DNA of 64,000 nucleotides from Mesostigma viride (Eukaryota > Streptophyta > Mesostigmatophyceae > Mesostigmatales > Mesostigmataceae), in NCBI GenBank assembly GCA_009746045.1, contig RPFO01000213.1, positions 1,038,302-1,102,301 on the forward strand, given 5' to 3'. The notes beneath the pieces are model-generated. The model saw only the letters and a list, made by a program, of their open reading frames with translations, had not been told where the DNA came from and ran no database searches. Positions 41-60,500 of the stretch are shown in pieces; the stretch's first letter is position 1, and every line of letters starts with the position of its first letter. A program made the translations under genes and the position numbers.

Positions 41-3000
41 GATGGCTCCAAGGTGGACGGCGACTTCTCGCTCCTGTCACCCCAGGAGCTGCTCACGCGG
101 TCCACGGCTGAGCTCAAGCAGCTGATCGCCGAGCGGCGGGAGGAGCGGCGCGAGGCGGCGGAGCAGAGGGAGAGGGCTGAACGCGCGCGCCAGCAGCTAG
201 AGGAGAGGAAGGCCGAGATGGGCGCAGGTGGGGGTGGGTTGGGGAAGTGGGTCTAGAAGCAGGAGAGGTAAGGTGTTTGATAAGGGAAGGAAGGCGATGG
301 GTGCAGGGGGGGGGGGGGGGCAAAGGGGGTTTGGAAGCAGGAGAGGGGAGGTTTAGTGAGGTGTATGGGGAGGGGAGGAAGGCGATGGGTGAAGGGGGGG
401 GCGGGCAAAGGGGGTTTGGAAGCAGGAGAGGGGAGGTTATAATGAGGTGTGTGGGGAGGGGAGGGAAGGTGGTGGGCGCAGGTGAGGGGGGCCGTTGGGG
501 TTTAAAGGCATGTGAGGTGGGATTAGAAAGGAGAGGATGGCCATCATGGCATGTGTGGGTGGGTGGGTTGGGGGGGGGAGAGGGGGCATGAAATGCAGAC
601 GGGGGGTAAGGGGTCTACGACACTTAAGGTATGGGCAGGTGGGCAAGTGGGCACAGGGGGCTGGAGGAGATGCCCTGCCGATAGATGTGTAAGGGCAGTG
701 GGGTCCAGGAAATCGGGCAGTGGTTGGAAAAAGGGCAGCAGGGGCAGGTGGAGCAAAGGCGAAGCACAGAGGGAGGCCCAGTCATATCGTGGGGCCATTA
801 CTGTTTCCTTCAACAGTGGCATAGTGTTCATCCTGCATGCTCCGCCCCTCCGCATGCCTCATGTGCCACCTGTCTCATTTGGCCACGTTGCTTCCTGCTG
901 CCACGTGTCGCGACCGCAGCCCCGATGGAGGAGGACGGCATGGCGGCGGTGGAAATACCCAGGAGCGGGGTCACCATATTGGAGGGTCACCAGTCTGAGG
1001 TTAGCACAGCGATCGTCAGGACATGGAGTTTCCCCGTTAGGCTAGTGATGGGCTTGTGACTCATCAAAGATTTTCGATAAGAGTGTGATGCAATATGTAG
1101 TTTCCTGTGACATTAGCGTCCAGTGATTGTGTTAATATGGTGCAGCATGAGGGCGCATGAGCCACGCTCAGTCTCCAGCCCCTGTGCACGATTTCGGATC
1201 TCGGCTTTGCGGGGGCAACACCTTCTCTGCTGTGGCCACTACAGTGACCATGGTAGCGACCATGACCATGACGTGAGGCTTCGCGAGGGCAGCCCCTTGC
1301 ATAAGAGGGCGCTTGCGTTTCAGTTGTAGATCATGGCGGCTTCGTCATGGCATGTGCAAGCTCATGTTTGCGGAGTGGGCGTGTGGCTACCACGTTCAAG
1401 TCCCCGTTGCGTCTCCTATGCCTTACATTTGGTCCGTGTCGCTCGCTTGTCTTCTGTCACCTGTCACACCTGTGTGCCATCCGCCAGGTGTTCATCTGCG
1501 CGTGGAGCCCCACGAGTTCGATGCTGGCGTCCGGGTAAGGGGGAGTGGGGGGATAAGGGGTGTTGTGGTTGGATGCTGGCGTTGGGGTAAGGGGGAGGAG
1601 GGGGATAAGGGGTGTTGTGGTTGGATGCTGGCGTTGGGGTAAGGGGAGGAGGGGATAAGGGGTGTTGTGGTTGGATGCTGGCGTTGGGGTAAGGGGGAGG
1701 AGGGGGATGAGGGGTGTTGTGGTTGGATGCTGGCGTTGGGGTAAGGGGGAGGAGGGGGATAAGGGGTGTTGTGGTTGGATGCTGGCGTTGGGGTAAGGGG
1801 GAGGAGGGGGATAAGGGTTGTTGTGGTTGGATGCTGGCATTGGGGTAAGGGGAGGAGGGGGATAAGGGGTGTTGTGGTCGGATGCTGGCGTTGGGGTAAG
1901 GGGGAGGAGGGGGATGAGGGGTGTTGTGGTTGGATGCTGGCGTTGGGGTAAGGGGGAGGAGGGGGATGAGGGGTGTTGTGGTCGGATGCTGGCGTTGGGG
2001 TAAGGGGGAGGAGGGGGATAAGGGGTGTTGTGGTTGGATGCTGGCGTTGGGGTAAGGGGGAGGAGGGGATGAGGGGTGTTGTGGTCGGATGCTGGCGTTG
2101 GGGTAAGGGGGAGGAGGGGGATGAGGGGTGTTGTGGTTGGATGCTGGCGTTGGGGTAAGGGGGAGGAGGGGATAAGGGGTGTTGTGGTTGGATGCTGGCG
2201 TCCGGTAAAGGGGGAGGAGGGGGATAAGGGGTGTTGTGGTTGGATGCTGGCGTCCGGGAAAGGGGGAGGAGGGGGATAAGGGGTGTTGTGGTTGGATGCT
2301 GGCGTTGGGGTCAGGGGGAGGAGGGGGATAAGGGGTGTTGTGGTTGTGCATGTGGGGTCGTGCTTGTGGGGTCGTGCTTCCATGCTGGCGTTTGGTAAGG
2401 GGAAGCCGACATGTTATGTTTGTAAATGCAGGAGCGTGGCTGGTTGCTGTTATATGTGATGTGGGTAAGGGAGTACTGTTGCATATTGGTTCTGTATGTC
2501 GTGGGCCGCCTTGACGATCGATCAATTTTTTTGGTTCGTTATATTTATTATTCACTAGTTTAGTGTGCCTGGGTAGCACAACCCCGTAATTAGTTAAACT
2601 CATGCCTTGGTCGTCTTTCCCATTGGTATGTGCGGCACCTGAATTCAAGCGATGGCACATTGTTCTCCGGCCTTCAATGTGACAGTAAATATCTGCCTTA
2701 TCCTAATGTTATGGTGGCTCCCTTGCTGCCATATACCGTGCCATGCCATGTGCGATGCTATCGTGGCACGTGGCGGCTGCCAGCTCGGGCGACTCGACGG
2801 CTCGCATCTGGACAATCCCCGAGGGCCCCGCACTGGCTTCTGGCGACGTACCGAAGCCGCTGGTGCTGAAGCATTTCAACAAGGCGAATGAGAAGAGCAA
2901 GGACGTGACCACGCTCGACTGGAACGTGCGTGCAGTATATGCTGTAGGATTCACTGTATATTCTAGTGTGTATGTTTGCATAGCGAGGGACAGTTGATAG

Positions 3001-6000
3001 TAGGTAATGCAGCAAGGCGAACAAGAAGTGCAGGTGACGTGATGGCAAGCCTGTGCTTGTTGCCTGATGGATAAGGACAGGATGGCTTGCGGAAGGAATG
3101 ATGGATAGGAGGTGGGGTGGTGCTGTAGATGCTGGGTGGAGGCATTCTCGAGGCACTGCAAATAGGAAAGATGGGGGGGTACGCAGGCAAACCCAGCCGC
3201 TCCAACATTGTGTGTATTAGATCACGACAATTACTTCAATTGGGTGCCCTCCACGCCTCTGTGTCGAGGCCTGCGGGATAATGTTGTTGGCGTCATGGAG
3301 ATGTGCTTGGGGTCTTTGGTTTCCATGCGGGATTGATTAAACCCTTATACTTCGTCACATGGGTACCAATAAAGGAGCCCTTCAACCCTTCTACACAACG
3401 AGGAGGGAGGGCACCGTCTCACTAGCTTGCACCAGCGTCCCCCCAGCGTCTCAAGCGAGCAGGCCACAGAGGACTCTTTCTGCACTTTTTGCAGGCCAAC
3501 TGTGGGTGCAATACAGCAAGAAGCAGGCTGACGCAGCGTGGATGCTGTAACGGTGAGGTGCTATCAAGACGAAGGCTGACACACAAGCGAATGGGCGCAA
3601 ACAACGGAGCCCTGGATGGTACATGAACGAAAGCGCCGCACATAATTCATGCCATTGACCAATGCCCCTCTTCAAAAAATCCAGGGTGTTGTGACCCCAA
3701 TCCGAGAACTTGTTTGTGTAGCCCTCCATTGCTTGCCACTTGTGTCACCTTCGATCAGCTGGCATTCATGCAGCTGTGCATGGGTCATGGGTGGTCGCAG
3801 GGACATCTTCGGGGTACAGGCATCTGACTGGTCGTGTGTATGTCGGGGTTGCTTTGTTTCGGGGTGGCGTGCACAGACGGTGGAAGTCCCTGGTTGCAGC
3901 GCCTGTCTTTGCTGGGTAGACGCGTATGCCTCCTGTTGGAAATGTTGCCAATGTGTTTGGGGTTCCGGATCTATAAGGACATCTTGGATTCCAGCTTGTC
4001 GTACTCAGCGCGGCCTTTCTAGGTTTGGCTGTGGGAATCTGACTCACCCTTCCCTGTCGGCCTCCGTTGTTTGCTGCCTTGACTTCAATTCATGGCGTCC
4101 CATGCCAGGGCGACGGCACGCTGCTGGCGACTGGGTCGTATGATGGGCAGGCCCGCATCTGGACAAGTGAAGGTGAGTCACGCAGGTGTGGGCTGGTAAG
4201 GGGAGGTGGGCCGCCATGGGTGGTGGCGAGTGAAGGTGGGTCTTTTTGTATGGTGATAAGGGGAGGTGGGTAACTTGGCATGATGACGGGAGGGGAGGCA
4301 GGTTTCTCCAGTGTGGTTGAGGGAATGCGCTCTCTGGCGTGTGTCGAGAAAAGGGGGGGTGGGGTCCGCCAAGGGCACATCGTGACACCATCGCTTTGGG
4401 CAGATGGGTTGGCATGGATGGATGAGTTGACATGTTGGACCAATGCTGGATGAGTTGGCATGTTAAACCAATGCTGGATGAGTTGGCATGTTGGACCAAT
4501 GCTGGATAAGTTGGCACGTTGGACCAATGCTGGATGAGTGGGCATCTTTAACTTATGCTGGACCAATGCTGGATGATGGCTATTTGGGATATCTCGGTAC
4601 GCCTCTCCCGGTTGTGCTTGTTGCCACATGCCGCACGCCAGCTCCGGCCACCGTCCACCCAGCTTTGTTCAGCTTCTATAGTGCTATAGATAACCCTCGC
4701 CAGTGTCCTGACCAGCTTGGTTTATACCTGACCGCTGGGCCACCCTGGGTCATACCTGATCACCCTGGGCCCTCTTCCGCCCTGCGTGTCGACCCGCCCC
4801 AGGTGAGCTGCGCGCGACGCTGAGCAAGCACAAGGGCCCCATCTTCAGCCTGCGCTGGAACCGCAGCGGCGAGTACCTGCTGAGCGGCAGTGTGGACAAG
4901 ACGAGCATCATCTGGGACGCGCGCACGGGCGAGGTCAAGCAGCAGTTCGAGTTCCACAACGGTGAGGCGGGGGGGGGGGGGCGGGGGGGGGGGGGCAGAG
5001 AAGTGTGGATGGAGGGTGGGAGCAAGGGAGTAAGGGTAGCGTTGGTGGAGGGTGGGAGTAGGGTAGTAAGGGTTCGGCGGAGGGGCAGGGAATCATGGAT
5101 GCAGTGGGGCAGCAATGCGAAGGTTGATGGAGCATGGGAGGGAAGGGACTTGTTCCTGAAGGTGGGGAGGGCATCCAGTTGTTGATGGGGCAGACATGCC
5201 AGATAGCAGGGAAGACCCTGGGAAGGGGGGCAAGGGAGAAGGGGAGGGCACGCGTGGGTCAAGGGAGCAGGGGACCACCATGTTCCCAGCCACCGCTCTC
5301 CTGATCAGCACTATCATGGTCGTCGCTGCTAGACCGCGAATTCCAGTGGCATGGGTTGCAGCGTTGTCATCGCTCTTATCATCGTTGGGACATCAACAGT
5401 TCTACTCGGTCCCTTATTTGCGGCTGTGGTATCTTAAACCGTGTTTTGTGGCTTTCTGGACGCCATGTGACGTATGCAGTACGACCCTTCGGAAACCTGG
5501 CATCGCTCCTATATCCTCATCCACCGCTCTCATCTGCATTTCTTGGCCCGTGCCTCACATTCTCATACCTCTTCCTCCAAACTAACTTGTCTCGCCCGCC
5601 CACCATCCAGCCACCTGTGCTCCCCGCATGCCTCCCATCCCATGACGCTTTCACCGCAATGACCGTGTAGCGTGCACATGCATCTATCGTGCATTATCGC
5701 ATGCTATTCACCACCATCGCCTGTGCTATACACGTGCTATTGCATGCTATTCACCACCATCGCCTGTGCTATACACGTGCTATTGCATGCTATTCACCAC
5801 CATCGCCTGTGCTATACACGTGCATTAACGCATGCTATTCACCACCATCGCCTGTGCTATACACGTGCATTAACGCATGCTATTCACCACCATCGCCTGT
5901 GCTATACACGTGCATTATCGCATGCTATTCACCACCATCGCCTGTGCTATACACGTGCATTAACGCATGCTATTCACCACCATCGCCTGTGCTATACACG

Positions 6001-9000
6001 TGCATTAACGCATGCTATTCACCACCATCGCCTGTGCTATACACGTGCATTAACGCATGCTATTCACCACCATCGCCTGTGCTATACACGTGCATTATCG
6101 CATGCTATTCACCACCATCGCCTGTGCTATACACGTGCATTATCGCATGCTATTCACCACCATCGCCTGTGCTATACACGTGCATTATCGCATGCTATTC
6201 ACCACCATCGCCTGTGCTATACACGTGCATTATCGCATGCTATTCACCACCATCGCCTGTGCTATACACGTGCATTAACGCATGCTATTCACCACCATCG
6301 CCTGTGCTATACACGTGCATTAACGCATGCTATTCACCACCATCGCCTGTGCTATACACGTGCATTATCGCATGCTATTCACCACCATCGCCTGTGCTAT
6401 ACACGTGCATTAACGCATGCTATTCACCACCATCGCCTGTGCTATACACGTGCATTATCGCATGCTATTCACCACCATCGCCTGTGCTATACACGTGCAT
6501 TAACGCATGCTATTCACCACCATCGCCTGTGCTATACACGTGCATTAACGCATGCTATTCACCACCATCGCCTGTGCTATACACGTGCATTAACGCATGC
6601 TATTCACCACCATCGCCTGTGCTATACACGTGCATTATCGCATGCTATTCACCACCATCGCCTGTGCTATACACGTGCATTATCGCATGCTATTCACCAC
6701 CATCGGCTGTGCTATACACGTGCATTAACGCATGCTATTCACCACCATCGCCTGTGCTATACATGTGCTATTTGGGGACGCCAGCGCCCATGCTGGACGT
6801 GGACTGGCGGAACAATGTGACCTTTGCCACCTGCTCCACGGACCGCTTCATCTACGTGTGCAAGCTGGGGGAGAACAAGCCCGTCAAGTCGTTCCAGGGC
6901 CACAAGGTAGGGGTGGCAGAATAAGCCCGTCGAGTTGCTCCAGGGCCACAAGGTAGGGGTGGCATGGGTGAAGGGGGGATGGCCAGGATTGACGACAAGC
7001 AAGCCCATATCCACAAGCAGGGGCCACTGTAGCCGCAAGGTAGGGGTGTCCAGCATTAGCAACCAGCACATGGTCAAAAGCATGGGCAATGATAGCCGCA
7101 AGATGGGGATGGCCAGGATTACCAAGAAGCACGCAAGTACAAGCATTAGCCAGGATGGCCAGGATGGGTGTTGTGCGTGGGCAGGATAAGGTGGGGAGGA
7201 CCCGAGGGACAGGAGAGGGGAGGTAAAAGGAAGGATGGGTACTAAAGGGGGTGATGAGGACATGAAGAGTACCTTGGTCTTTCGTCCCGTCTGCATGTCA
7301 GTCCTCCTGCGGCTCTGGGTCGAACCTCCTGTCCCCATCTGCGTGCCATGTCGCCACGGCTCTTGCCCCCACCTGCTTGTGGTCGTGTCGTGTTGATTCG
7401 GCTCTCCCAATCGTGTGTAATCTTGTTTCTGCAGCACCAGGAATCTGTTGGTCAATTAACTAACTGTCTAATGATCAACCATCTGCATGCCGTGTTCACC
7501 CACCATGCAGGACGAGGTGAACGCGATCAAGTGGGACCCCACAGGGACGTACCTGGCCTCCTGCTCCGATGACTGCACTGCGAAGGTGCGCCGTTGCATC
7601 GCCTCCTAAATAGCTTCACCGTGGCTCCTTCATATCTTTGCTCGGCCTTGGTTATAGCTTTGCTGTAGCTTAAGAAGGCCTCCTTTCGAGCTTCACAAGG
7701 CCTTATTTATAGCCTTGCTAGGCCTCATTTTTAGCAACCTTTGCTGTATCTTCGCAAGGCAGCCACTCGTGTCCTGTGGTTAGTGTCCAAGTCCATGGCC
7801 ATGGGTGCCCTTGTTCCCCTCATGGAGGTGGCCTGCTCAGTGCAGTCATGGGTCCGCAAGGCAACCTCTCCGAACCCTGGCTTCGTCCGATGGAATGTTT
7901 CCGCTGGCGTCCGTGGTTGTCACTGCGGCGGCCTGCGTACCTATCCACCTTGGCCGGCCCCTGCTGCGGCTCCCCCCCTCAGCCCTGCCGCACGTCCCCC
8001 TTTGGCTCACCTTGTCCCCTTCCCCTTGAGCCCTTGGCTTGTCCTTCCCCATTTACCCTCCCCCTGGCCCAGATCTGGAGCCTGAAGCAGGACAAGTGCG
8101 TGCACGACTTCCGCGAGCACGCCAAGGAGATCTACACGATCAAGTGGAGCCCGACAGGGCCTGGCACCGCCAACCCGAACAAGCAGCTCGTGCTGGCGAG
8201 GTACAGTGACCAGCGTAGCGAGCAGCACACAGTAACCGAACAAGCCGCTTGTGCTTGCCAGGTATAGTGACCAACATGGCCAGGAGTGTACAGTGACCGA
8301 ACAAGCAGCTCGTGCTGTCCGGTACAATCAGTGGGATCTCCATCGCAAAGCCCTGTGGTGGGATCCCCATCGCAAAGGCCGGTGTGGAGATGCAATAGAC
8401 CACCCATTTACGGGCCGAACGCACGCATGGGCATCCGTTTGGGCACACATCCAATTCTGCTGGCGCCTAGTCTTCGGGCACCAGTTTCGTGCGTGGGCAT
8501 AGATCATTGATTGCCTAATTACGGACTTGAGATGGGGTGTTTGCGTGGGAAGAGATGGGGCCGTTCTGCGGGCCGCAGGTGTGCGGCGCGATGGTTTTGG
8601 CCAATGTCGTGTTTTGGCAGTGAGTCTTGCCACGCGTACTGCTGGTCCACTACCCCACGCTCCCACCACGCGCCTGCCCCTTCCCCGTGTCACTCTCACG
8701 CCCCATTAGAATGTATGCTTGCGATGTCTAGCCTGCCTCATGGACATGATGCCCGCTAGTTTAAAAACACCCTTCCTCGTGCTTGCACGCTTGCCTTGTA
8801 TGGATGCCCACGGCTGCTCCACCCGCGGTGCATCCGCATTGTGCCCTGACCCAACACCTCCACCCCTGTCCCTTTGCCTGTCCTTGCACCTGGGGTCTGT
8901 GCCTTGATGTCCGTGCCTCATGTGCCCACATGCGTGCCACCCCCCGCGCCTTGTTGGACGCCAGCATCAAGCTCTCGTCCTCACACTGTTGTATCCATGT

Positions 9001-11650
9001 CTTCATGCCTCCTCTGTCCCTTCCGCCCCCATGTGTCCTGTGCCCGCAGCGCCTCGTTTGACGCCAGCATTAAGCTGTGGGACATCGAGCAGGGCGGATC
9101 CATCTACTCGCTCACCAAGCACAGGTACGTGTCCTGGCTCGGTCTACTCGCTCACCAAGCACAGGTACGTGTCCTGGCTCGGTCTACTCGCTCACCAAGC
9201 ACAGGTACGTGTCCTGGCTCGGTCTACTCGCTCACCAAGCACAGGTACGTGTACTGGCTCGGTCTACTCGCTCACCAAGCACAGGTACGTGTACTGGCTT
9301 GGTCTACTCGCTCACCAAGCACAGGTACGTGTACTGGATTGGTCTACTCGCTCACCAAGCACAGGTACGTGTCCTGGCTTGGTCTACTCGCTCACCAAGC
9401 ACAGGTACGTGTACTGGCTTGGTCTACTCGCTCACCAAGCACAGGTACGTGTACTGGCTTGGTCTACTCGCTCACCAAGCACAGGTACGTGTACTGGCTT
9501 GGTCTACTCGCTCACCAAGCACAGGTACGTGTACTGGCTTGGTCTACTCGCTCACCAAGCACAGGAACGTGTACAGGCATTCACGCCTTAAGTTGGGTTC
9601 GAGGGTTTCTTCGGGTCAACCCAACTTAAGGCGTGAACCCAACTTAAGGCGTTAAGTTACCATAACTTGCGACCCCCCGCCCTGCTGATGGACTTTAGGG
9701 TGTCTTTTGATAGCTCTCGTCAAGGTTAATCGAACTGAACTCAAGAATTCATCCCCAAGGTCGTATTTCGGGTCGTAACTTCGATGCAAGTCATCAAACC
9801 GTCTGTAGGCAGGTGAAGCCCCACACAGCACGGTGCTAGCCAAACCTGCCTAACTTAACTACACGCATAATAGGGCATGCGTGTTTTATGAGTAATCGTA
9901 AACAGTGTAGCGCTGTTGGTTTGACAGCTTGCCCTCATTGCCGGCCACCTGCATTCTCGCCTCTGGTGTCTCGTTTCTGCTTTTTGTTGGACTCTGCCGT
10001 GCTGTTTGAAAACCGTTCGTTCCATTTGGCCTTATCAGTTTTGCCATTGGGTCGCATTCAGTTTATCAGTGATGGGTTCAAATGTGACGAACGCCTTTGA
10101 ACAGCAAGCCGTTTGCCCATCCCGTAGTGGTCAAAATCACTTTGCGTCTAATTGTTTGCGAATCGACCTCGCAAACTGCTATTAATGGGCTTCATTTTGG
10201 GCCGCAAAGTTCAAATGTTACCGCGCCGCGCCTGCGCCGCGCCGCACAGCCCCAAGCCTAGCTATTTTAATCAGTGCTATACCCAATGGATCAATAAAAT
10301 TCCTCAGTTGGGTAGTTGGGTTACATCGAAAGGGGGCCAAGGGATATGAAGTCGGTGAGATGAAGCCCCTGACCACAAACGAGTCGATCGGCACGCAAAC
10401 CTAAAACTTTGCCTTTGTTTTGGGTCGCAAACTATACATTTCACCTTGTTTTGGGGTCGCAAAGTAATTATTCGTTAAGTGATTTTGACCACTACGGTAT
10501 ATCTCTAGAATTGACGTCTGGCTACGAATTCCAAATTACAATACAATGATCAAGGAGACAGCCAGCCCAGGCCACAATGATCACTGAATCAGCAACCAAC
10601 TGACCAAGATCCGCAGTGAATTCTAGGTTTGAAGTGTTGGGTTGCCCAGGCTGGCGAACACCCACAAGTGGCTGCAGTCAAAAACAGTGCTACACTGCGC
10701 TAGAAGCCAGTCCACGCCTTCAGTAGGGTTTTTGCTAGTACAGCCAGCAGCCTGAAGTTGGGTTCGCCATGCAGCCAACTGCGACCCAACTTAAGGCGTG
10801 AACCCAACTTAAGCCAACCCAACATAACGTGTTAATGACTGTACTGGCTCGGTCTACTCGCTCACCAAGACCTGGTACATTTATAATGGCGCTATCTACC
10901 CGCACAGGTATCACCAAGGACAGGTGTGTGGGCTTGCAGTGACTATTTGGCCACTAAGCACAGATGCATCTCGTGGCTTGGTCTACTTGCTCACTCGCAA
11001 TAGCCCAGGTATGTTACCTAGTCACCAGGCACAGGCAAGGCAACCAAGGCGTATCCGTGTAGCAGATCTATGAGCAAAATCTATCGACAAGAACTATGCA
11101 GCAAGGTGTCCCACCAAGGAATAGCAGCATGGCTGGTGATTTCGCACAGTGTTACGTAACAACTTGTTTCACGGTGCATGTTAAAGCTATAAACCACCCA
11201 AACATATATTCCTCATGTTCTCAACCACACACCAGTGTCATGTCAAGCTGATAAGCCACCCACCGACTCATTCCTCATGTTCACGTTCATAATGCCTCGT
11301 CCTTCCTGCCCCGTACCTCCCACTTCGATTTCCCCGCCCTCATCCCCCCTGCCCGCTCCCCCTGCCTCGTCCCTCCCGCCTTTTTCTCTCCGCCCCTTAT
11401 CGCTCCCCTCCCCTCCTTTTTCCCCACCAGCGATCCGGTCTACTCGGTCGCGTTCAGCCCTAACGGCGAGTTCCTGGCCTCAGGATCCTTCGATCGCTGC
11501 CTGCACATCTGGAGTGTCAAGGATGGGTCGCTCGTGCGCACGTACAAGGGCAGCGGCGGCATCTTTGAGGTGTGCTGGAACAAGGACGGCGACCGCGTGG
11601 CCGCCTGCTTCTCCAACAACAGCGTCTGCGTGCTCGACTTCCGCATGTAG
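41..11650 (+). CDS. HOS15: TBL1/HOS15-like WD40-repeat transcriptional corepressor, 3' part (11 exons)
   Basis: Exons: 41-227, 920-999, 1488-1534, 2784-2925, 4109-4172, 4803-4961, 6785-6906, 7511-7585, 8073-8200, 9050-9124, 11431-11650. They join with matching phases into 432 codons plus TAG; the 5' end, expected to encode the LisH and F-box-like part, lies before the window. The first exon is a charged E/R/A-rich coiled coil. The rest is a run of WD40 blades with typical endings ([58 protein letters not shown]) and ends [11 protein letters not shown]. This matches the TBL1/TBL1XR1 and plant HOS15 family, nuclear scaffolds that link histone deacetylase corepressors to chromatin or to ubiquitin ligases. 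Family assignment is firm from blade order and the C-terminus; the cellular role is inferred. Several introns begin with tandem copies of their own donor junction (see findings). A candidate TGTAA poly(A) signal at 11792-11796 lies inside LINE-derived DNA. Confidence 0.93.
228..919 (+). repeat. G-rich intron 1 with degenerate donor-like copies
   Basis: Intron of the HOS15-like gene. The exon ends in GAGATGGGCGCAG followed by GTGGGG. Related strings ('gcgatgggtgcagg', 'gcgatgggtgaagg', 'ggtgggcgcaggtgagg') recur at about 294, 382 and 471, each followed by a G run. They look like decayed copies of the exon end plus donor. Confidence 0.5.
1516..2345 (+). repeat. 52-bp minisatellite made of exon-3 end plus 5' splice site, about 16 copies
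   Basis: Exon 3 of the HOS15-like gene ends ATGCTGGCGTCCGG|GTAAGG at 1534/1535. A unit of about 52 bp containing GGATGCTGGCGTTGGGGTAA then repeats to about 2345. Each unit repeats the exon end and an intact GTAAGG, plus a G-rich spacer ending TGTTGTGGTT. Copies near 2200 and 2250 keep the exon-like 'gcgtcc'. The array therefore offers many consensus donors directly downstream of the real one. Confidence 0.92.
4418..4575 (+). repeat. 28-bp tandem repeat in intron 5, about 5 copies
   Basis: Degenerate units containing GATGAGTTGGCATGTTGGAC followed by CAATGCT repeat head to tail. They do not resemble the flanking exons. Confidence 0.8.
5698..6765 (+). repeat. 45-bp minisatellite abutting a 3' splice site, about 24 copies
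   Basis: Units begin GCATGCTATTCACCACCATC and continue through CGCCTGTGCTATACACGTGC plus ATTAAC or ATTATC; the first two or three lack a few bases. Copies are nearly identical, differing mainly by AAC/ATC at the unit end, so the array is young or homogenised. It fills the last kilobase of intron 6 of the HOS15-like gene and ends about 20 bp before the acceptor at 6783-6784. It is open in several frames only because 45 is divisible by three. Confidence 0.95.
6919..7115 (+). repeat. Copies of exon-7 end plus donor at the start of intron 7
   Basis: The exon ends in AAGCCCGTC...CAGGGCCACAAG followed by GTAGGGGTGGCA. A close copy of these 45-odd bases, including the donor, occurs at 6919-6963. 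Weaker third and fourth copies lie near 7005-7045 (CCGCAAGGTAGGGGTG) and 7084-7115. Confidence 0.88.
8205..8330 (+). repeat. Two copies of exon-9 end plus donor at the start of intron 9
   Basis: The exon end CCGAACAAGCAGCTCGTGCT with its GTACAGTGACC donor recurs at about 8230-8275 (donor GTATAGTGACC) and 8297-8325 (donor GTACAATCA). Each copy carries about 30 bp of exon sequence. Confidence 0.88.
8947..8974 (+). repeat. Decayed copy of exon-10 start within intron 9
   Basis: The first ~28 bases of exon 10 at 9050 (CGCCTCGTTTGACGCCAGCA...) recur here as CGCCTTGTTGGACGCCAGCA followed by TCAAGCTC, but without an AG in front. This is a 3'-splice-site-side duplication, the mirror of the donor duplications. 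Confidence 0.75.
9101..9574 (+). repeat. 40-bp minisatellite made of exon-10 end plus 5' splice site, about 12 copies
   Basis: Exon 10 ends TACTCGCTCACCAAGCACAG|GTACGTG at 9124. The unit (GGTCTACTCGCTCACCAAGC followed by ACAGGTACGTGTACTGGCTT) then repeats every 40 bp to about 9570, each with an intact GTACGTG. Decayed copies resume beyond the inserted transposon at about 10841-11035, so the array was longer before insertion. Confidence 0.93.
9575..10840. mobile_element. Candidate non-autonomous DNA transposon, 1.27 kb, inserted in the 40-bp array
   Basis: The array is interrupted exactly here. The left end has CATTCACGCCTTAAGTTGGG and the right end, read on the other strand, CATTAACACGTTATGTTGGG: imperfect terminal inverted repeats. 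Further inverted and direct copies of CTTAAGTTGGGTTCACGCC lie at both ends. A 4-bp GTAC flanks both sides (9571-9574 and 10841-10844), consistent with a target duplication. No transposase ORF is visible. A second element is nested inside. The superfamily is not recognised. Confidence 0.72.
10122..10497. mobile_element. Nested MITE-like element with ~21-bp terminal inverted repeats
   Basis: Starts CCGTAGTGGTCAAAATCACT and ends with its reverse complement at 10478-10497. Internal tracts such as GGGTCGCAAA and GGGCCGCAAAGTTCAAATG repeat. No coding capacity and no clear target duplication. It lies within the element at 9575-10840. Confidence 0.7.
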
Positions 11651-11691
11651 AGCGGTGCTCCAGATGTGAGGAGGATTCCGCATGCAGAGCG

Positions 11692-11710
11692 TCCAACAAC
11701 AGCGTCTGCG
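11692..11710 (+). repeat. 19-bp duplicate of terminal coding exon just past the stop codon
   Basis: TCCAACAACAGCGTCTGCG occurs in the last coding exon (11612-11630) and again here, 42 bp after TAG. TTCCGCATG(T/C)AGAGCG is also duplicated next to it (about 11639-11654 and 11675-11690). This looks like filler or target duplication at the junction with LINE-derived DNA that starts right after. Confidence 0.8.
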
Positions 11711-12206: not shown

Positions 12207-12505
12207 TACTTGGTTGAGATATCTGGTACCATGAACAGCAGATGCTAGTATCGGATAGACGTTACGTTTTTTTTTTTCTCGATTAGCATAGTACTCCGTG
12301 GCATTCCCATGCGCAGGACACGCAAGTACTTACTTATCTGATGTACGTGATTTAGTGCCAATTGTTGTCTGGGTATTATTTTTTAATTATTCAATGCCCA
12401 ACAATTAATTAATTAATTAGACTCGTGCTCCCGTTGGGGAGTCACGGAGCATTAACCCCGATGAATGGATGGATGGGTGCAAACATTCCTACCGGTCTAA
12501 TCTAT

Positions 12506-12745: not shown

Positions 12746-12839
12746 TCTAATCTATCTACATTGGCTACATACTACATCTATCTAGCAACATTCTAACTAC
12801 ATCATCTATCTAGGCAGCCGCACGCTGCCCTAGGGGGAG

Positions 12840-15816: not shown

Positions 15817-27775
<11,959 letters not shown>

Positions 27776-31251: not shown

Positions 31252-31262
31252 ATTGACATTAT

Positions 31263-32485: not shown

Positions 32486-32630
32486 ATTAAAAATTAAATT
32501 AAATTATAACATGTCTCCGTTGGGAGATCATGTAGCACATATTCCAGGTTGGATGGGTGGTGTGGAGGAAGCCGCGTAATCGAACTAACCTAACTCTAAG
32601 CTATATCTAGTCTAGAAAAGCCTATCTACG

Positions 32631-36106: not shown

Positions 36107-36457
36107 GGTAGTGGAACGGGACTGTTTAGAGGTTAGCTGTCCCCGAAGCCTGTTAGCTGCGAGCCGACGAGGAAGGTTGTCTACCTACTGTCTACCAACA
36201 GAGGCAGCACCCTTCTGGCTAGACACCTGACGAGACTCCGCTCCGGGGGTGTTAATCGGAACACCTGTAATCCTCTGCCCACCAAGGAATGCTGCGAAGG
36301 AGCCATCCTGAAGCAGACGCAGCTTAATGCGCTTACCCGGGGTCTCGTGCTCCAAGAATGGGGCGCTTAAATGCCTCAAGAAGGCTCGTGGAGGTCTCAC
36401 CTGCCGGCTGGTCGAAGTGCTTGACGATGACATTGTGGCTGCGCCGGGCGACAGGGT

Positions 36458-49300: not shown

Positions 49301-52300
49301 GCCGCACTGGCATCCGTACGCGGCCGCTTCTTCGCCGTCCCACCGTCCCGGGTGCCGTCGCTCCCCTGCCCTTTGCCACTGCCACCACTGCCACCGCCAC
49401 TACCAGCGCGGCTGGCATTTCCTGCCGTATTGCTACCTGCTGGGACCGGCATGGATGCCTGGGGAGTGGAGCGCAGCGCTGATGCCTGCGGGTGGCACCG
49501 CAGCACGAGGCTGCGCAGGAGTCGCTGGGTGTCCGCCAGCTGGTGCTCCTGCAGGTGCCAGTAGTAGGCGCACAGCCAGGCGAGTGCTTGCCGCACTGCC
49601 ACACGCAGCATGGGTAGGCTGGGGAGCTCGTTGTGGGCCGCCTCTGGTTGGGCAAGGGGAGGGGGGGGGGGCAACGTTTCATGACACAGGGGGGGCGAGA
49701 AGGAGAGGGCACCGGCAGAGAGCGAAAGAAACATGTAGGAGTGAATCCCGTGCCACAACAGAGGTGCTGCATGCGACAACTATAACAAGCACCGTGGGCG
49801 CAAGCAGAGTGTGACAAAAGGAGTGGTGCAGTTAAAGAGGTGTGCACACTTGTGAACAAAATAAACGGGAGTGGTGCAGAGATGTGGGAGGCTGCGGCCC
49901 ACTAGGTGAGGCCAGCGTGTGGGAACGGATGCCGGGGAATAGCTTCCATCTCTGCGTGCACACACACACACACACACACAAAAGTGTGTGCAAGGCAACG
50001 AGCGCATGCCAAGCAAGATACAGCCAACGATCTCCTCCACCATTCAGCCGCGCACATGTCATCAAACACCCCTCGCTGCCCCTGCGGAGGCATCGGTGCG
50101 TCGTGGGCAAGACATGGACATGCATCATGGAAGGCCATGCACTCGCATAAGCACTTGCATGCGCCGTCAGATGTGACGGGGGCGAACTCCTGGGTGTGGA
50201 TTTCACAGCCCAAACATTGCCCATGCGAAGGCCGTGCCGGCCTTGCTTCCACAACGCGGCTACCAAGTTACCTGCCTGGCCCATCACAGCATCGACTCTC
50301 ATGCCCCATGTCAGACACCCACAAAAAACACGCACCCCCTCCCATTTTATTTTTGGCTCTTCCTGAGCGCACTCCCGCCACCCTGCCTCCATGTTTCCTT
50401 CATGCCACTAACCACCCGGATCCCACTCCACTCCCTTCAGAGCCAACCCTCACTCACCGCGCTTGCACCTCACTTCCACCCCATACCGCCCTGCCTTGGT
50501 TCTACTCCTGCCATGGCTCCATTCCCGCACCAGCCTGCGCTCATCTCGCCCCTAACCCGTACCGTGCCGCACGTCCACCAGCAGCCGGGGTATCCCGGCA
50601 TTGTTGGCCAGCGAGGCGATGGACTTGGCAAAGCGCGCGGTCTGCGCCGGGTCCACCACCCCGTTCACCAACCTGCGCATGCAGACGTGGTAGGGGATGC
50701 GAGGATCGCCGATGCCACACGCAACGCGATCAAATGAGAGAGCTGGTGAAGTCACATGGGTGACGCCACATGTCACGTGGGGGCCAATACGCCGTCGCTG
50801 ACCAGCCGGCACATGGCGGCGAGTAGCGTGCATCATGATCAAGGCGCCAGCCAGTGTAGGCCAGAGATCTGGAGAGTGATAGTCGGGCTGTGATCCGCCA
50901 GGTGTCCACATTGGACCACTCATGGAATGTTTACTTGAGCACGGGCCAAGGGCCCCCGGATCCTATGGCTGGTGACTGGAGGAAGTGAAGGAGTCGAACA
51001 GCCGCGGTTTAAGACCGCGCTGGGATTGGGCGAGGGCCGCCTGTCCAGCATGGTAACCACGCTGTGAGGATGGATCCTACCGGAACACCAGAATCCTGTA
51101 GGCCATGCGAGCTGCGGCGATCAACACGGACATCAAAGCCCGGAAGGAAAGGAATGCCCTGAGACCTGTTACAGGGGACCTGTTGTAGTGGCTGGATGGA
51201 GCACAGCCGAGCCAACGGTGAGCAAGCAAACTGGTGACCATGACGGACAAGGATGCTCTGTACATTAAAGAAAGGACACACCGCACACCGTGGCGTGGGT
51301 CCCATCAAACGAGTGCGAGATTCAACTTCAGCCCGGATGCCATTTCATAAAATGCCAGCGTGAGCCGAGCCAGTGAGCGTGTACAAGTGGATACATGGGT
51401 AACCCCAAAGATGAGGACCCGCCAGAACCGCCATCACAGCCGGTACAGCACGTATCTCCCTCTCTCCAACCAACCACCCTCCTCCCCCACACCCACGGCC
51501 ATCGTGGCTTCCGCCCAATAATTATAGTCACTTCTAGGCGCGCAACTACCCAGCACCCAGCTACACACGACAAACGTGAACAACATCATTAAAAGGAAAG
51601 GATGGGTGTGGATGGCGAGTACCATCCCAGCGTGAGCCTGTGGCCCCACAGCCCGAGTGGACATGCGTCACGATGTAGTGCCATGGACATGGTGTGGAAC
51701 AGCATACAAACGCTACAAACGATGGCTTTGCGAGGGAGTGGCCACTCCCCCTTCGGAAGTTGACCAAGCACCCAGCACCAGCTATAGACAAATGCACAGC
51801 ACAGCCACCGAGCACCCGGCACCCGGCACCCATCACGCACCGTATGGCAGCCAGCGCGTACAGCATGCGCAGCGTCTCCTCCGACACAGGGGTCCCTGGA
51901 GCCGCGCCGTGGACCCTGGGAAAGGGACGGAGAGGGGGGGGGGGGGGTAGCAGGGGCAAGCCATGCGTCATAGACAGGGAGGGCACACCGGTGTTGCCAA
52001 ACGTGTGCCAAACGGCGATTGAGCGGGGGATGCTGGCCTTGCATGGCCTGCCCTATGGAGCATGCCAGGGAGTAATGAGGAGGCGTCATGATTTGCCAGC
52101 GCCAGTGAATCCCCACAAGCATGGACCCCACAAGCATGGGCCCCACAATCATGCACCCCACAAGCATGGACCCCACAAGCATGGACCCCACAAGCATGGA
52201 CCCCACCCACAATCATGCACCCCACAAGCATGCATGCCTCTACCTGGCATTGGGTGCATCTGTGGCAGCCACACGGGAGTCGAGACAAACCAAGAAGAGA

Positions 52301-53041
52301 GGCAACTGGCCAACGGCGTGTTGGCCAGACGTAAGTGGGAAATAAGGGGCCATGCGTGTGTGAGAAGCATGGTCCGGTTGACAGCAAGTACCAACCATGG
52401 GGCTGTGGCCCTTGAGCAAGAGGCAAGATGCAAACAAAGTACGTCAGGAGATAGCATGCTGCATGGGCGCATACGTCACCCCCTGCTTGGTCCAAGCGCG
52501 GTCGATGCCCCTGCAATGTCCAAGTGCGGGTGAGCAGGTGGCAAATGCGCAAGCAGGCGGGCAGCCAGACGGAGCTGCCGGTTGCCTGGCTGGCTGGTAG
52601 AATGGCTGGCTGGCTGCCTAGGTGGCTGCTTGAAGAGTCAAGTATAACCACGCACCGCATCTGCTGGTCGTGAGACATGGCCTCTACCAGCGCGGCGGTG
52701 ATCTCCACCGATAGGGGCACACGGCCTCGAATTTTCCACGCATTAACCTGCACGCAAAGGCAACCGCATTTGGCGAGGAGGTGGTCAACAACACGGCTAA
52801 TCGCAGCGCACACAAAACATTTTCGTCAACCACCCGAGAAATCAGAATGCTGAGGTCGTCATGCTCAGGGCACATTTCCACATACCCTTTTTAAGCCACG
52901 AGCCAGCTCTATGGAGCTACTCGAGAAGAGTTGGTCACGAACTTGCCGCCACTCTTCCCAACAAATCCATGGCACAGCTCGGGGCACAGAGCGAGCCTGG
53001 AGCTGTTCGGCAAGCTCCTTGCTTGAAGGGATACGTGACAT
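43354..53041 (-). CDS. LAS1: LAS1-like pre-rRNA endoribonuclease, 8 exons
   Basis: Exons in transcript order: 53041-52886, 52747-52656, 51915-51841, 50672-50563, 49643-49233, 47333-46199, 45448-45069, 44273-43354; 3279 nt, 1092 aa, all phases close. The N-terminal ~200 residues match Las1: [96 protein letters not shown] and [23 protein letters not shown] (143-148, across exons 4/5) is the HEPN nuclease motif R-x4-H, so the catalytic Arg and His are kept. Las1 cleaves ITS2 of the pre-rRNA in the nucle(ol)us with the Grc3/Nol9 kinase. The remaining ~850 residues are low-complexity (Gly/Ser/Ala-rich, an acidic D/E run near 47000) with islands such as [17 protein letters not shown], and are much longer than in the yeast protein. 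The start is the first in-frame ATG of the exon; an upstream start was not found. Confidence 0.9.
47521..48395. repeat. 9-bp tandem array (GGGCCAGTA)n, about 96 copies, LAS1 intron 5
   Basis: Near-perfect GGGCCAGTA units with a few variants (GGGCCAGTG, GTGCAGTG near 47845). In the LAS1 transcript it reads (UACUGGCCC)n and ends about 185 nt before the acceptor of exon 6. Long Leu-Ala or Gly-Pro-Val frames across it are artefacts. Confidence 0.97.
48921..49035. repeat. 24-bp tandem repeat in LAS1 intron 5, 5 copies
   Basis: Units of GGGCAGCCGGCCTAGGGATA plus GTTT, with a few changes (GACGGCCC, GATAATTA). Confidence 0.85.
49955..49982. repeat. (CA)n microsatellite
   Basis: A GCACACACA... run of about 13 dinucleotides in LAS1 intron 4. 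Confidence 0.9.
52103..52235. repeat. 15-bp tandem repeat in LAS1 intron 2, about 8 copies
   Basis: Units of CCCCACAAGCATGGA with the variant CCCCACAATCATGCA. Unrelated to neighbouring exons. Confidence 0.88.
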
Positions 53042-54538: not shown

Positions 54539-57500
54539 ATGGCGTCGACAATGTCCGTGGCTGCTCAATCGTTCTCCACTGCCCTGTCCTCGCGACAAGC
54601 TGCAGTGGCCAGCTGCAATGCCACCGTCGCCAGGTCTCAGGCGGTAGCCCCGGTGCAGAAGCAGCTGGTGCAGTTCGATGGACTGCGCGCCAAGAAGCTG
54701 TTTATGGGCTCCGATGCTGCAGCCACGCTCAGTGCCTTCATGGTATGAACCTTCAGTATTTGACCACCCATGTGCCACCCAACACATGGTGAATTTAATC
54801 CCCGATGCTTTGATAATTATTAATTAACGTCAGCAAGCATCACAGAATACATGGGACATGCTGGCGAGAAGCTGTGACCGGTTACAAAAGAAAATATGGT
54901 TACATAATTAGCCCGTGCTGTCCCAGGTCCCTGGTAAAGGATAAACGGCTTTTTATGTTTTTTGTACTGGTGGCCAACGTTTGTGTATCCCTGGTAGGTG
55001 CATGGGTATTTACAGATAAGCGCAAGATTGATAAATAAACTTGTCGTGCGACTTGAGAAGTGAGTCTTCATGGACGTTGTAAGCACCTTCCACGTATAGC
55101 ATCTTACGGATTGGTTCTGCCCTGGTGGCCTAGCTTCGGGTTGCTCAGCAGGCATACCATGGCAGGGTAAATAACCATACAATTCGAAGCGGACTGGCGA
55201 CTCTCCTTCACCCTGCCGTCTTTAGGCTTCCAGGGCATCTTACGAATTTAGTGTTGGCAAAAGTTCCTGCATCTTGCCTGATGGCCCTAGGGTGTCCATG
55301 CCAGTTCCAAGCAGCTGGGAATAGCTGTTAAAAGCCTAGCATTTCCATAAGAGAAAGCTTTTTATCCGTTAATTTGCCAGCAGCTCGCAGTTCCTTATCG
55401 CATGCTTCATTGTCCAAACAAAAAAATATTCCCCCTTATGGAGCAAGCAGCAGAATGTCGGCAGGTTGCATACTGACCTTCTTACACGACAATTTTTTTT
55501 TCCGAGGGGTGCCCTGGTATGCGTTGTACAGCCTATCCTCTTCTATGTCAGGCCCATCCTACACTGCATCCACCGTAAACCTTACCCCCGCTACCCCCCA
55601 TCGTCTCTACACCGCATCCTTCTCTATGCGGCATTCCTCCCCCCCCCCCCCCCCCAGCCGTGCGCCTCCTCCACCGCCCGCCCCTCGTCCGCCGCGACCA
55701 GCCGCGCGGTGACGTCGATGGAAGTCACGGGCGGGCGCAAGAACGTGCTCATCCTGGGTGGCACCCGCTTCATCGGCCAGTACTTGTCCCGCGAACTGGT
55801 CAAGCAGGGGCACCAGGTGAGTGTGACACCTGGCACCTGTTATTGCTATCATACTATAAGCTATTCTAGTACCTCTCGCATGAGCTGGTCAAGTAGGGGC
55901 GCCAGGTGAGAGCGCGGCCGGGCACCTATCACCTAAGCTATCATTTTAAATGGCTTGGAGTGTGGGACCTGCGGATGGTTTGTGCGGACCAGGAACCTGG
56001 CCGATCGACCTTTTTATAGGATGAGCAGTACTACTATTCATACACCCAATGATTGGTGGCCTGGGCCTGGCCATGGGCATGGGCATGATCCATGTGGAAT
56101 GGTGCTGGCTGACCTACTACTATGAAAATATACTTTTGCAACCACTGGCTGGGAGTGGCCCCTCACCACAACGATCTCCTCACCGCGCCGCCGTATGTAA
56201 GCAGCCGGCATGCAGACCCCGCGTCTGGCTTGCCGCATGAAGGGAAGGAAAGTCCATCTACCAACCAGTCGCACGATTTTGAACTTGCAAATGTCTCAAG
56301 CGTGGCGGACACTGGCTGATCTGGCCCTGCAATTCTTGAAGGGAGGTATCCGTGGCCAAGGGGAGCATGAGTGGGCCGCTAAGAATACGGCCGCAGCCTG
56401 GCCGCTAAGAATGCCGGTGAAATCGAAATCCACCTGCCAGAGGGAACGGTTGCCTTGGAGAGCTGTAGACGGCCACCACTGGGCAGCAGAACCAATCAAA
56501 TAATAGTAATGATAATATTGCCAACATTGCGCACATTATTAGTACAAGTGTATCCCATAGGGCTCCGCCCCTAATAAAAAAGTCTCTTTTGGGGGAGACG
56601 TGAGACGTCCTATCTCAATTCGACCCCTACTGACCTAGGCTATTCCCACCCTTTGATCTGCCATAGATGACTAATGACTTCCCAGTTCCACCATCAAGAG
56701 GTCCCATTCCCGCGTCGCCGGTCTTTGGATCCACTATTAATAACCCTGTCGGACAACCGGCGCGGGAAAGCTCAACTCAACCTCAACGTCGCCGGTCGCA
56801 TTTCCGCCCTCTACAACCTTTCCCGTCCCCCCATGCGGATTCCGTCAAGTAGAATCCCGTGAAGTAGAATCCCGTGGAGTAGAATCCCGTCAACAGCATT
56901 CCATCCAGCAGTCGTCAATCCCGTCAATCCCGTCAATCCCGTCAATCCCGTCAATCCCGTCAGTCCCATCCAGCGGCGGAGTTCAGTAAATCTCTGCCCA
57001 CGATCCTCGTGATCATGTCAGGTAAACCCCGTCAAGTAGCTCCCGTCAAATAGGCCCCGATGAAGTTGGATCCCGTCAACTGAATGAACTAATTCCGTCA
57101 ACCAATCCCATCAACCATCGGCGTTCAGTTTTCTTCCTCGATCGTCCGTCAGCTTGTCTTCCCCGTCCGTCCCCCTCCGTCGGGTTTTCCTTCACCCGTC
57201 ATCCGCAGCCCAACCGTTGCCAGTGACTGCCGTTCCCATTCCTGAGTATCGATTCCTTTTTGATACATTTTGCATATCCCAACGCCGAGAACTTGGTAGG
57301 TTCGAATGGCGAAATTTTACGACGAAATTATTTGCCGTGACCGTTGAGAAGCTCGCTTTAGAGGGTAGGATCCTTTTCTGACCTCTACTCCCTCGTGAAC
57401 CGATGCCCTGCCTACCAATCGACAGGTCACCCTGCTCACGCGTGGCAAGAGCCCCATCACGCAGCAGATCCCAGACGATACCCCGTCGGGCTACGCCAGC

Positions 57501-60500
57501 TTCAAGTCAAAGGTGGGTGTCATGCAGCACCGTGAGCGGCTTGCTTGTGCTTGTGTTGCGTTGCTGGCTCGCTCCAGGGGTGTAGCTGCTGGCGGTGTAA
57601 GATGAGTCATTGATTCTGGTGTAGCTGCTGGCGGTGTAAGATGAGTCATTGATTCTGGTGTAGCTGCTGGCGGTGTAAGATGAGTCATTGATTCTGGTGG
57701 TATACGATGAAGGGCCGCATGACTGGCCTGTCTTGGTGGTGTGCTGTTATGGCATGTCTTGGTGGTAAAGGTTTAAGTCCAGAATGAGGCATGCAGCGCA
57801 CCCACGGCCATGGCTCGTGGAGGCGGCTGGGTTGACACAAAAACTTGGTTTTCATTGCAGTTACCCTGTAATGCCTCCGGTACTTTTCTAATAGGTGTCA
57901 GCGTCAGTCCGGCACGGTATATGTTTGGCGTCATACTGCAGCATGGATGATCACATCCTATATGAAATAGCATGGTTATTTTTAGTATCATACTGGCATC
58001 CATTGTGGCGCTTACAGTTCTTTTGATGGCACATGTACCACTGACAGGTCATGCCTCACGTCTCTCTAGTAAGAGGCAGTCAGACCAGGGCAAGCTTGTG
58101 CTGGACAGTGACGACATTTCTTGAAAATGGGGTCACTGCCCTATGTTTTGGATCTCTCCGGCGTTGATGGCACTGCGCATGCGATGCACGTACAGACCGC
58201 CTGGCTCATAAGGGTCGGGCTAAGGTAGAGGCGTGGGTGATGCTGTCAGCAGCAGCACGCCCTTCGACTGCATTTTGGATGAGCAGTGGCAGGCGATGTG
58301 TCCTTCCAGATAGCATATTTTCTATCTGTGTGCGGGGATCATGGCTTGTAGGCTGACACACGGTTGCAAGCGAACATGCTATTGGACACGGACAATCCTT
58401 CTGCTTGTGCCGGTTACGTGTGCTGGCAGATTAAGCACATTGCTTGCGACCGCACGGATGCGGAGAAGCTCAAGGCTGCGCTGCGCTATACCAAGTTCGA
58501 CGCGGTCTACGACATCAACGGTGAGGGGGGAGCACCTTGGTGTGGGTGGTGGTCCACTCAACGGTGAGGGGGGACCACCAATGTTTCCTGCTGCTCCCCC
58601 ATCTGCAGCTTGCCGCAGTATCCATGCCATGGCTTGTAGCACTGGAGCGCTGGAATGTTTGGTCAGGTGCACCTCTATTGCTCTCAACAGCCCCCAATCG
58701 CCCTCTAAGGCCCCAAATGCACAGTGTTGCCATCACACACCCTGTAGTGCTCTCTAACACCCGCGAATGCCCTTTTTGCCCTGGTCTTCCCCTCCCTCGC
58801 CCTCGGCTTGTCCCCTGCCCCAGGCCGTGAGGCGTCGGATGCCAAGATCATCATCGAGGCGCTGCCTGGCCCCATCCAGCAGTACATCTTCTGCTCGTCG
58901 GCAGGAGTGTACCTCAAGTCCCTGGAGATGCCCCACTTCGAGGTGGGGCACTGTCACAATGCTGCCGCCTGCAGCAGCAGCAGCAGCAGCTAATTAGTTT
59001 CTAGTAGTTTGTATTGGTTGATATGTAGCATGGTGCTGCCATTGAAGGGGAGGAGTGCGGTCCACCTCAAGTATGCGGGAGAGAGGAAGAAGTTTTGGGG
59101 GGCCAATTTTAGTGCAGCCATAGCTAAGCTGGCAGCACCATGGTAACAGCCAGCTTGGTTTGCTAAGCTGCGAATGGGGTATGATTGCACGAAGGCGTGC
59201 GGTGGTCACCTGCAAGGTCGCAGGACGTACTGCTGCCTGACTCACGTGTGTCTCAATTGCTTTGAATGTCGTGCCAACCCATGCGCAGGAGGTCATCTCC
59301 CCCCGTGCCCATCTGCCGACTTCAGCTTCTTCCTTGCCTGAGCCTGTCTTCCTTTTTGCTGACATGTGCCACACCCACCGATGCTTCTTCGCTTGTGCCC
59401 CTCCTTTGCCTCATATCCAACCCATCCCTTTTGTCGCCCTCGTCGGCACCTGGCTGCCGCCATCCACGCACTGCCGCTACCCAGACCGACGCGGGCGACA
59501 AGAAGAGCCGCCACAAGGGCAAGCTGGACACGGAGGAGTACCTGCAGGCGGCCGGCGTCGCTTGGACTAGCATTCGCCCTGTACGTGCCTCGCCCCCTCT
59601 CTCCTTACCAGTCTGCTTGATGATTTCCTTGGTGGGCCCGCCGCGGCAAAACTCAAGGAGGTAGTCTCCTTGCTGGTCACCCAACAGGCCGGGATGATGG
59701 TGGAGCTTACCTGCACCGAACGGAACTGAGAATCACCCTCTCCCCGGTAGAACGCTGGGATCTGCCCCCACGAAAAGGTTTTCTTAACACTCCTTCCTCT
59801 TTAGACATTTCAATATTTCACAGGACGGCGCAAGCAGATGCTAGTTACTTTCTGTGTGCCATTCTTCGTGCCGGTCTACAGGACTTTGTTTGCTGACATT
59901 TGTCCATCGGCTACGTGCAAATGCTGGCTGCCTGCCCTCCCTGCCATGCTCGGTGCACTGATGCGTCGCCAGGTGTACATCTACGGCCCGCTCAACTACA
60001 ACCCGGTGGAGGAGTGGTTCTTCCACCGCATCGCCGCCGGCCGGCCCATCCCCATCCCCAACTCGGGCATGCAGGTCACCCAGCTAGGCCATGTCAAGGT
60101 GAGCAGCAATGCGCGCTTGCATCCGTCGCGCAACCATGCTTCTGTGGGCGCCGGTGACATCGTGAGATGGGCTACCATAGTGCCAGCACATCACTGGGGT
60201 GCCAGGCGTGGGTATGGATATCGGTGGACGATGATACGAAGTAGCTTTTACAGAGGGCATTAGAAACAAACAGGAGCGAGGCACGCTGATGACAGGCATA
60301 GAGGAAGGCCCCTATCATGTCCTATTATGCGCTTGCCGGTCTTCTATCCCAAGTGTTATGTTTTAGTATTGCCTCCCACGCCCTTTCTGCCACCATTGCC
60401 GCTCCCATAAATACACCCCATGAGGCTGTATAATTCAATTTTATGCATACTACTAAAAGAACTACGAAAAGTAAATAACGTTCTCAATGTCATTCACTCC

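Follow-up and report, generated by a model that had tools for sequence, protein, structure and literature searches.

Repeats spanning the 5' splice junction are frequent at the starts of sampled introns in Mesostigma viride

About one in four introns sampled from Mesostigma viride begins with additional copies of its own 5' splice junction. The pattern was noticed in a 64-kb stretch of the genome (C1:1038302-1102301; hereafter, the window), which is part of a 440-Mb assembly comprising 2243 contigs. The repeats contain the last nucleotides (nt) of an exon, the splice donor, and the start of the following intron. They are enriched at donors over both acceptors and intron interiors, and their sequences are not shared between loci. 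An original prediction, made from the window, described these repeats as independent events that are anchored on the exon-donor junction and lengthen existing introns, and it linked them to a known route of intron gain; its interpretation is partly supported. It is likely that donor-anchored local duplications, several of them minisatellites, recurrently lengthen introns while the first donor is still spliced.

The strictest evidence comes from ungapped repeats that cross a splice junction with a score of at least 36. Among 78 introns (38 from the window, 29 from kinesin genes, and 11 from dynein genes), such repeats are found at 20 donors and 3 acceptors (Fisher p 1.7e-4), and when introns are swapped between genes as a control, they are found in 0 of 234 at either end. 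At scores of 30, 34, and 40, the donors number 21, 20, and 18, and the acceptors 3 each; the swapped donors number 0 in every case and the swapped acceptors 1, 0, and 1 of 234. Outside the window only, the same rule gives 13 of 40 donors versus 2 of 40 acceptors (p 0.003), which bears out the predicted recurrence across the genome. In the 20 measured donor cases, the repeats span the last 6-38 nt of the exon, and the best pair of copies is spaced by 38-215 nt.

Seven clean cases lie in the window (HOS15 introns 3, 7, 9, and 10; CSP41b introns 2 and 4; FDXR intron 5), and for these the claim that introns start with junction copies is confirmed. At other introns the claim held in part. HOS15 intron 1 does carry four copies, although they are gapped, G-rich, and 75-80% identical; HOS15 intron 5 has a junction match that consists of only one 14-nt match at +57; and FDXR intron 3 has junction-like copies at +279 and +326 that are weaker than its strongest repeat, which begins at intron +4. 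These three introns fail the score-36 rule and are outside the 20 cases. A 413-bp duplication assigned to intron 2 of a GNAT gene is real, although the gene is unconfirmed, its putative protein having no Pfam match, and the unit exceeds a junction in length; it is excluded from all counts.

A looser test measured self-similarity by aligning the 50 nt at each donor (-30 to +20) to its own intron and comparing the result with 300 equal-length samples of other introns. In the window, 11 of 38 donors beat all 300 samples, as against 3 of 38 acceptors and none of the exon-interior windows (0/29 and 0/29). The corresponding counts are 13/29 donors, 8/29 acceptors, and 1/29 and 2/29 exon-interior windows in the kinesins, and 3/11, 1/11, and 0/7 and 0/8 in the dyneins. 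Over the 78 introns, donors outnumber acceptors by 27 to 12 (p 0.009); among exon windows, the test is passed by 1 of 65 on the upstream side and 2 of 66 on the downstream side. One of the donors that beat all samples, that of HOS15 intron 4, has a match that covers intron bases only. Acceptor windows, too, resemble their own introns more than exon windows do (p 0.02). Acceptor-side copies therefore exist, and clear one-sidedness is limited to the junction-spanning class. Acceptor-spanning duplications may arise equally often and then be removed, since the upstream AG would be chosen.

The window sample consists of 38 introns (37 GT-AG and 1 GC-AG) from five frame-consistent genes, whose models were assembled manually on the basis of splice sites and open frames, then checked via translation. 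Four of these genes are listed in Table 1, among them an NAD-epimerase-family gene that we take to be CSP41b, the name given in the original prediction. The fifth is a small carboxymuconolactone-decarboxylase-like gene of 2 exons, with a Pfam score of 22.9 that is just under the cut-off of 23 bits. The single GC-AG intron among the 38 modelled is FDXR intron 6 (21024-21382, minus strand; donor G/GCAAGT). For the sample outside the window, the genome was searched for kinesin and dynein AAA_6 domains, genes picked before their sequence was seen, which gave 131 and 44 exon matches. Introns were placed where neighbouring exon matches are contiguous in the domain model; neighbours more than 14 model positions apart were excluded. 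Part of the matches, from genes with joining exons, entered the sample, and 58 chaperonin matches were left out. This procedure placed 30 kinesin introns, of which 29 were kept (the kinC1107 intron, 16 residues off, was dropped), and 11 dynein introns, together on 18 contigs. An ab initio gene finder for which the window genes served as training set recovered 6-25 of the 38 true introns together with 11-42 false ones (15 settings), which was too unspecific, and therefore only homology-bracketed introns were used. The statistics treat introns as independent, and they describe one genome and three gene samples.

The placement of repeat arrays within introns was examined by a lag scan, which replaced a blastn self-comparison that missed short lags. 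Because the scan gave 6-7 arrays in shuffled sequence at score 32, counts are based on a score of 36, with 42 as a check. At score 36, the 78 introns contain 39 interior, 21 donor-spanning, and 4 acceptor-spanning arrays; at 42, the numbers are 32, 17, and 4. Tandem duplication adds copies without consuming the flank, so that, if arrays are placed evenly, the likelihood that one crosses a junction scales with unit length, and 2.5-3.6 spanning arrays are predicted per intron end. The Poisson probability of at least 21 at the donors is <1e-9. Interior array starts are uniform along the introns (Kolmogorov-Smirnov p 0.72), with 3 starts in the first 50 nt. The donor is thus a preferred, not the sole, site of arrays, and the predicted anchoring stands as an excess at donors alongside 39 interior arrays and few at acceptors. 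With regard to base composition, the 78 introns have G-rich starts and C-rich ends (GC skew averaging +0.23 over the first 50 nt and -0.33 over the last 50 nt), and the skew in the first 60 nt does not distinguish introns with donor arrays from those without (p 0.85).

These counts bear on two explanations that involve no excess of births at the donor. The first is plain spill-over: introns are rich in arrays, and those that happen to straddle the donor survive as the first donor is kept. The 4 acceptor-spanning arrays are indeed near the uniform-placement prediction, and local repeats are about equally common in interior and donor windows. In the kinesins, 38% of donor windows and 25-28% of interior windows lie in local repeats; the figures are 3% (window genes) and 17% (kinesins) for acceptor windows, 3% and 7% for the last 56-16 nt of introns, and 0-5% and 3-11% for exon windows upstream of the donor and downstream of the acceptor, respectively. 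Spill-over leaves the 21 donor-spanning arrays far above expectation, and it sits poorly with interior arrays that are not crowded at the intron start; we consider it unlikely.

The second explanation assumes even births and an immortal source copy, that is, arrays that include exon sequence remain visible longer as the exon copy cannot drift and keeps reseeding them. Coding constraint does fix the exon part, and first copies tend to be the freshest: in 12 of 15 arrays, the last copy has diverged further from the source than the first has (Wilcoxon p 0.004). We argue that the loss of one mutating side can at most double visibility, and when the expectation is doubled to allow for a source copy held by coding selection, the 21 arrays still exceed 7.3 (p 2e-5). 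Acceptors should gain equally from such a source, yet only 3-4 cases are seen there. The identity of the best pair is also alike, at 0.938 for the intron part of donor arrays (n=20) and 0.935 for interior arrays (n=27), a comparison in which the shared score threshold pulls both values together. This explanation appears rather unlikely. The donor is favoured several-fold, either through more births there or through longer survival with a fixed exon source; the similar identities lean towards birth, as far as the blurring by score thresholds permits.

The repeat units differ from locus to locus. When 23 loci were compared among themselves, no unit was common to them (best E value 0.039), so that the same sequence at many intron sites, as expected of introner-like elements, was not found among the 23 units. 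As the units are unrelated, the events look independent, as predicted. If the repeats stemmed from a mobile or introner-like element common to the loci, or from an artefact of assembly, an explanation would also be required for copies that vary by substitutions and indels, for one array that was split by a later insertion, and for a kinesin array that is present on two contigs differing at 9 bases (L022 and L023). Although an inserted element does sit within the array of HOS15 intron 10, an origin of this kind is extremely improbable. In a separate case, contigs C1641 and C887 have chaperonin gene matches of equal score and are perhaps alleles; their corresponding exon matches are 4.1 kb versus 0.9 kb apart, a possible difference in intron length.

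Head-to-tail units of ~10-100 nt occur at HOS15 introns 3, 7, 9, and 10 and at intron 1 of kinC2189. Ungapped pairs often looked spaced, which suggested templated insertion or target-site duplication; among 16 introns inspected, however, the first introns of kinC1502, kinC2189, dynC1690, and kinC2 read as tandem once indels are allowed. In HOS15 intron 10, the two copies nearest to the source are identical to it, and HOS15 intron 7 has, besides its donor repeat, a separate degenerate 63-nt array with donor-like copies at 6975-7134.

The copies carry potential splice donors. Of 55 junction-spanning copies, 47 still have the GT, and many copies score as donors within the range of true ones. The decoy donors that had been predicted are thus present as sequence, although no selection on them was detected. 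In 18 arrays, conservation is 0.905 in the donor core, 0.883 in the exon part (p 0.62), and 0.838 in the intron part (p 0.014). The lower value of the intron part would be expected if only the copy side mutates in the donor core and the exon part. The exon part is the fair comparison for the donor core because both are fixed in the source copy, and by this comparison the decoys show no sign of selection. Selection for extra donors, for example through recruitment of the U1 small nuclear ribonucleoprotein (U1 snRNP) or protection of long pre-mRNA, could draw on the retained GT, on the donor core being better kept than the intron part, and on the greater length of introns with donor arrays (median 856 versus 589, p 0.04), to which the arrays themselves contribute; the donor core being no better kept than the exon part makes it improbable. 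Only 3 of the 20 lags are divisible by three (p 0.10), so that nothing points to a preserved reading frame at downstream donors. The predicted lengthening of existing introns is supported.

Use of the next donor would add one repeat spacing to the message. The alignment of HOS15 with TBL1XR1 is ungapped at introns 2-10, with gaps only within exons 2 and 4, and that of FDXR with adrenodoxin reductase is ungapped at introns 3 and 5. Against the domain models, the residue difference is zero at 21 of the 30 kinesin introns placed and at all 11 dynein introns, in a placement that penalised such differences. Protein homology thus fits use of the 5'-most donor, which is taken to be the real junction.

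Tandem duplication of AGGT-bearing sequence is a supported route of intron gain in the accessible parts of the literature (PMC3443670, PMC2891723; potato case, PMC4974935). An exon segment containing AGGT is duplicated in tandem, and the GT of copy 1 and the AG of copy 2 become the splice sites. The duplicated AGGT ingredient is common to that route and to the repeats described here, and each involves a local tandem duplication that carries splice-site sequence. As far as PMC3443670 sets out the model, the new intron is bounded by both copies; in the present introns, the acceptor shows no relation to the repeats. The predicted link to intron gain finds no backing in the sequences: exon end and intron end, compared in register, are identical at 6.40 of 20 positions with a null value of 6.53, a single intron among the 78 attains 12 of 20 (null rate 0.005), and intron start and next exon start give 5.31 with a null of 5.36. 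That exon ends do not recur at intron ends speaks against recent AGGT intron birth at these sites, and an origin of the repeats by this route is very improbable.

With donor-anchored duplication as the preferred reading, lengthening could proceed via the following steps. A segment spanning the exon end, the 5' splice site, and the intron start would be duplicated beside itself by ordinary chemistry, such as slippage, end joining, or unequal exchange; two donor arrays have grown to at least a dozen copies. The spliceosome would keep the original 5'-most donor, leaving the protein unchanged, and each added copy would become part of the intron; the change would be neutral because the first donor still splices. 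Copies past the first, being unconstrained, would decay, while selection on the exon would preserve the first copy as a source of new ones. Repeated over time, this would act as a ratchet that lengthens introns from the 5' end. In a stronger form, the 5' splice junction might be a real duplication hot spot, through a tie of transcription or splicing to DNA breakage or copying, and the ratchet might be one-way, genome-wide, and ongoing, with the exon end as a permanent seed; this form we put forward tentatively, as less probable than its negation.

A number of observations weigh against donor-anchored duplication as the account of these repeats. Four of the seven clean window cases belong to a single gene, HOS15, and in the LAS1-like gene 0 of 7 donors have repeats by either the self-similarity or the junction test. 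Outside the window, looser self-similarity gives no difference between donors (16/40) and acceptors (9/40; p 0.15). In the window genes, 24% of donor windows and 23-27% of interior windows lie in local repeats (donor windows 9 seen, 6.4 expected, p 0.13). The donor excess is visible by counting arrays and not covered bases; the latter measure hides it because a few long arrays dominate. With respect to tandem structure, the match does not fill its spacing in 16 of the 20 best ungapped pairs, the spacing is above 100 nt in some cases, and copy number is 2-4 at many loci; CSP41b intron 4, kinC1106, and kinC1424 stay spaced repeats even with indels allowed, and may have arisen by templated insertion or target-site duplication. 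The gradient of decay depends on distal matches that are weak: when 7 arrays with two or more copies at a score of 32 or above are tallied by eye, identity falls in 5, stays level in 1, and rises in 1, and HOS15 intron 3 has no simple gradient. The twin contigs with the kinesin array (9 mismatches in ~4.1 kb), the only pair compared, have the same copy number. The evidence that the 5'-most donor is the one used comes from the fit of the proteins.

Coordinates of the window features are given in Table 1. The window has further repeats and open frames. Two 9-nt arrays of ~95 copies each lie at 22278-23129 (GAGAATAGG, in an FDXR intron) and 47527-48386 (AGGGCCAGT, in a LAS1 intron), both closer to the acceptor than to the donor. 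Long open frames on the minus strand at 12843-15652, 32158-36184, and 37818-39602 are possibly non-long-terminal-repeat (non-LTR) retrotransposons; one has a YADD motif, which we take to be that of reverse transcriptase. A 52-nt exact tandem duplication at 39505-39611 adjoins one long open frame.

Table 1. Genes, junction repeats, and related features of the 64-kb window.
Feature	Positions	Strand	Description
HOS15/TBL1-like WD40 gene	41..11650	+	11 exons, 10 introns; N-terminal part beyond window; PDB TBL1XR1 E 2.5e-168
HOS15 intron 1 array	200..567	+	~85-nt G-rich unit, exon end and donor (after 227); 4 degenerate gapped copies, 75-80% identical
HOS15 intron 3 array	1516..2346	+	52-nt unit (19-21 exon and 31 intron nt), ~16 copies from donor after 1534
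HOS15 intron 5	4229..4270	+	Weak lone junction copy; one 14-nt match at +57
HOS15 intron 6 interior array (comparison)	5688..6768	+	45-nt unit x24; touches no exon
HOS15 intron 7 repeat	6869..6964	+	46-nt unit x2 over donor after 6906
HOS15 intron 9 donor repeat	8175..8326	+	61-nt unit, 2.5 copies over donor after 8200
HOS15 intron 9, acceptor side	8940..9076	+	34-nt copy of intron end and exon 10 start, 103 nt upstream of true one (exon 10 from 9050)
HOS15 intron 10 array	9103..9578	+	40-nt unit (22 exon and 18 intron nt), ~12 copies over donor after 9124
Apparent inserted element in HOS15 intron 10 array	9580..10802		19-nt perfect inverted ends; splits array
HOS15 intron 10 remnants of 40-nt unit	10853..11035	+	Decayed, mostly weak matches, past inserted element
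FDXR/adrenodoxin reductase gene	15817..27662	-	13 exons modelled (first exon end unsettled), 12 introns; PDB 1cjc E 3.4e-94
FDXR intron 5 repeat	21867..22067	-	Copies of exon end and GTGGGTGGCC over donor (exon 22055-22171)
FDXR intron 3 repeat	25729..26085	-	Strongest is a 29-nt repeat from intron +4; weaker junction-like copies at +279, +326
Putative GNAT intron 2 tandem duplication	40019..40848	-	413 bp x2, 99% matching; gene unconfirmed
LAS1-like gene	43354..53041	-	8 exons, 7 introns; Las1 domain match
CSP41b-like gene, NAD-epimerase family	54540..61396	+	9 exons, 8 introns; epimerase domain match
CSP41b intron 2 repeat	55779..55927	+	89-nt spacing x2 over donor after 55816, 77% identical
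CSP41b intron 4 repeat	58515..58579	+	22-nt repeat, lag 43, over donor after 58520; spaced, not strictly tandem

Related systems are known. Turri, Cuin and Porter are said to have described, in 1995, a minisatellite at an exon end of human IFI6 (6-16) that supplies multiple splice donors; its unit is reportedly 12 nt, with several donors in use. The repeats described here are alike in that the unit contains 5' splice-site sequence and the copies at the exon end offer multiple potential donors. They differ in that IFI6 is one gene, whereas here about a quarter of the sampled introns are involved, the spacings are 38-215 nt, and the first donor appears to be the one used. Intronic minisatellites in general show that arrays are tolerated in introns, as do the 39 interior arrays in 78 introns here; interior arrays are spread evenly along introns, whereas donor arrays form an excess at one spot. 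In human genes of segmental duplications, the available part of one study reports internal tandem repeats at exon-intron boundaries, with 27 intron modifications after manual check (PMC2812944). There, too, minisatellite expansion over exon-intron boundaries alters introns; that part of the study concerns recent gene duplicates and discusses novel intron formation (PMC2812944), whereas here conserved household and motor genes are affected, donors are far above acceptors, and existing introns are lengthened. A literature search, in which subscription journals were largely uncovered so that absence weighs little, found no account of donor-anchored arrays as a common genome feature, and the accessible portions of the Haematococcus and snow-alga genome descriptions do not mention the pattern.

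Intron lengthening is usually ascribed to transposons and slow drift. A different route, the duplication of the exon-intron junction, has left its record in about a quarter of the introns sampled here. With the source fixed by coding selection, the arrays could log their own growth and thereby make the rate and direction of lengthening measurable. They would also offer a large set of natural experiments on spliceosomal choice between near-identical donors in series, and they serve as a warning for annotation, as such genomes carry ladders of false donors.

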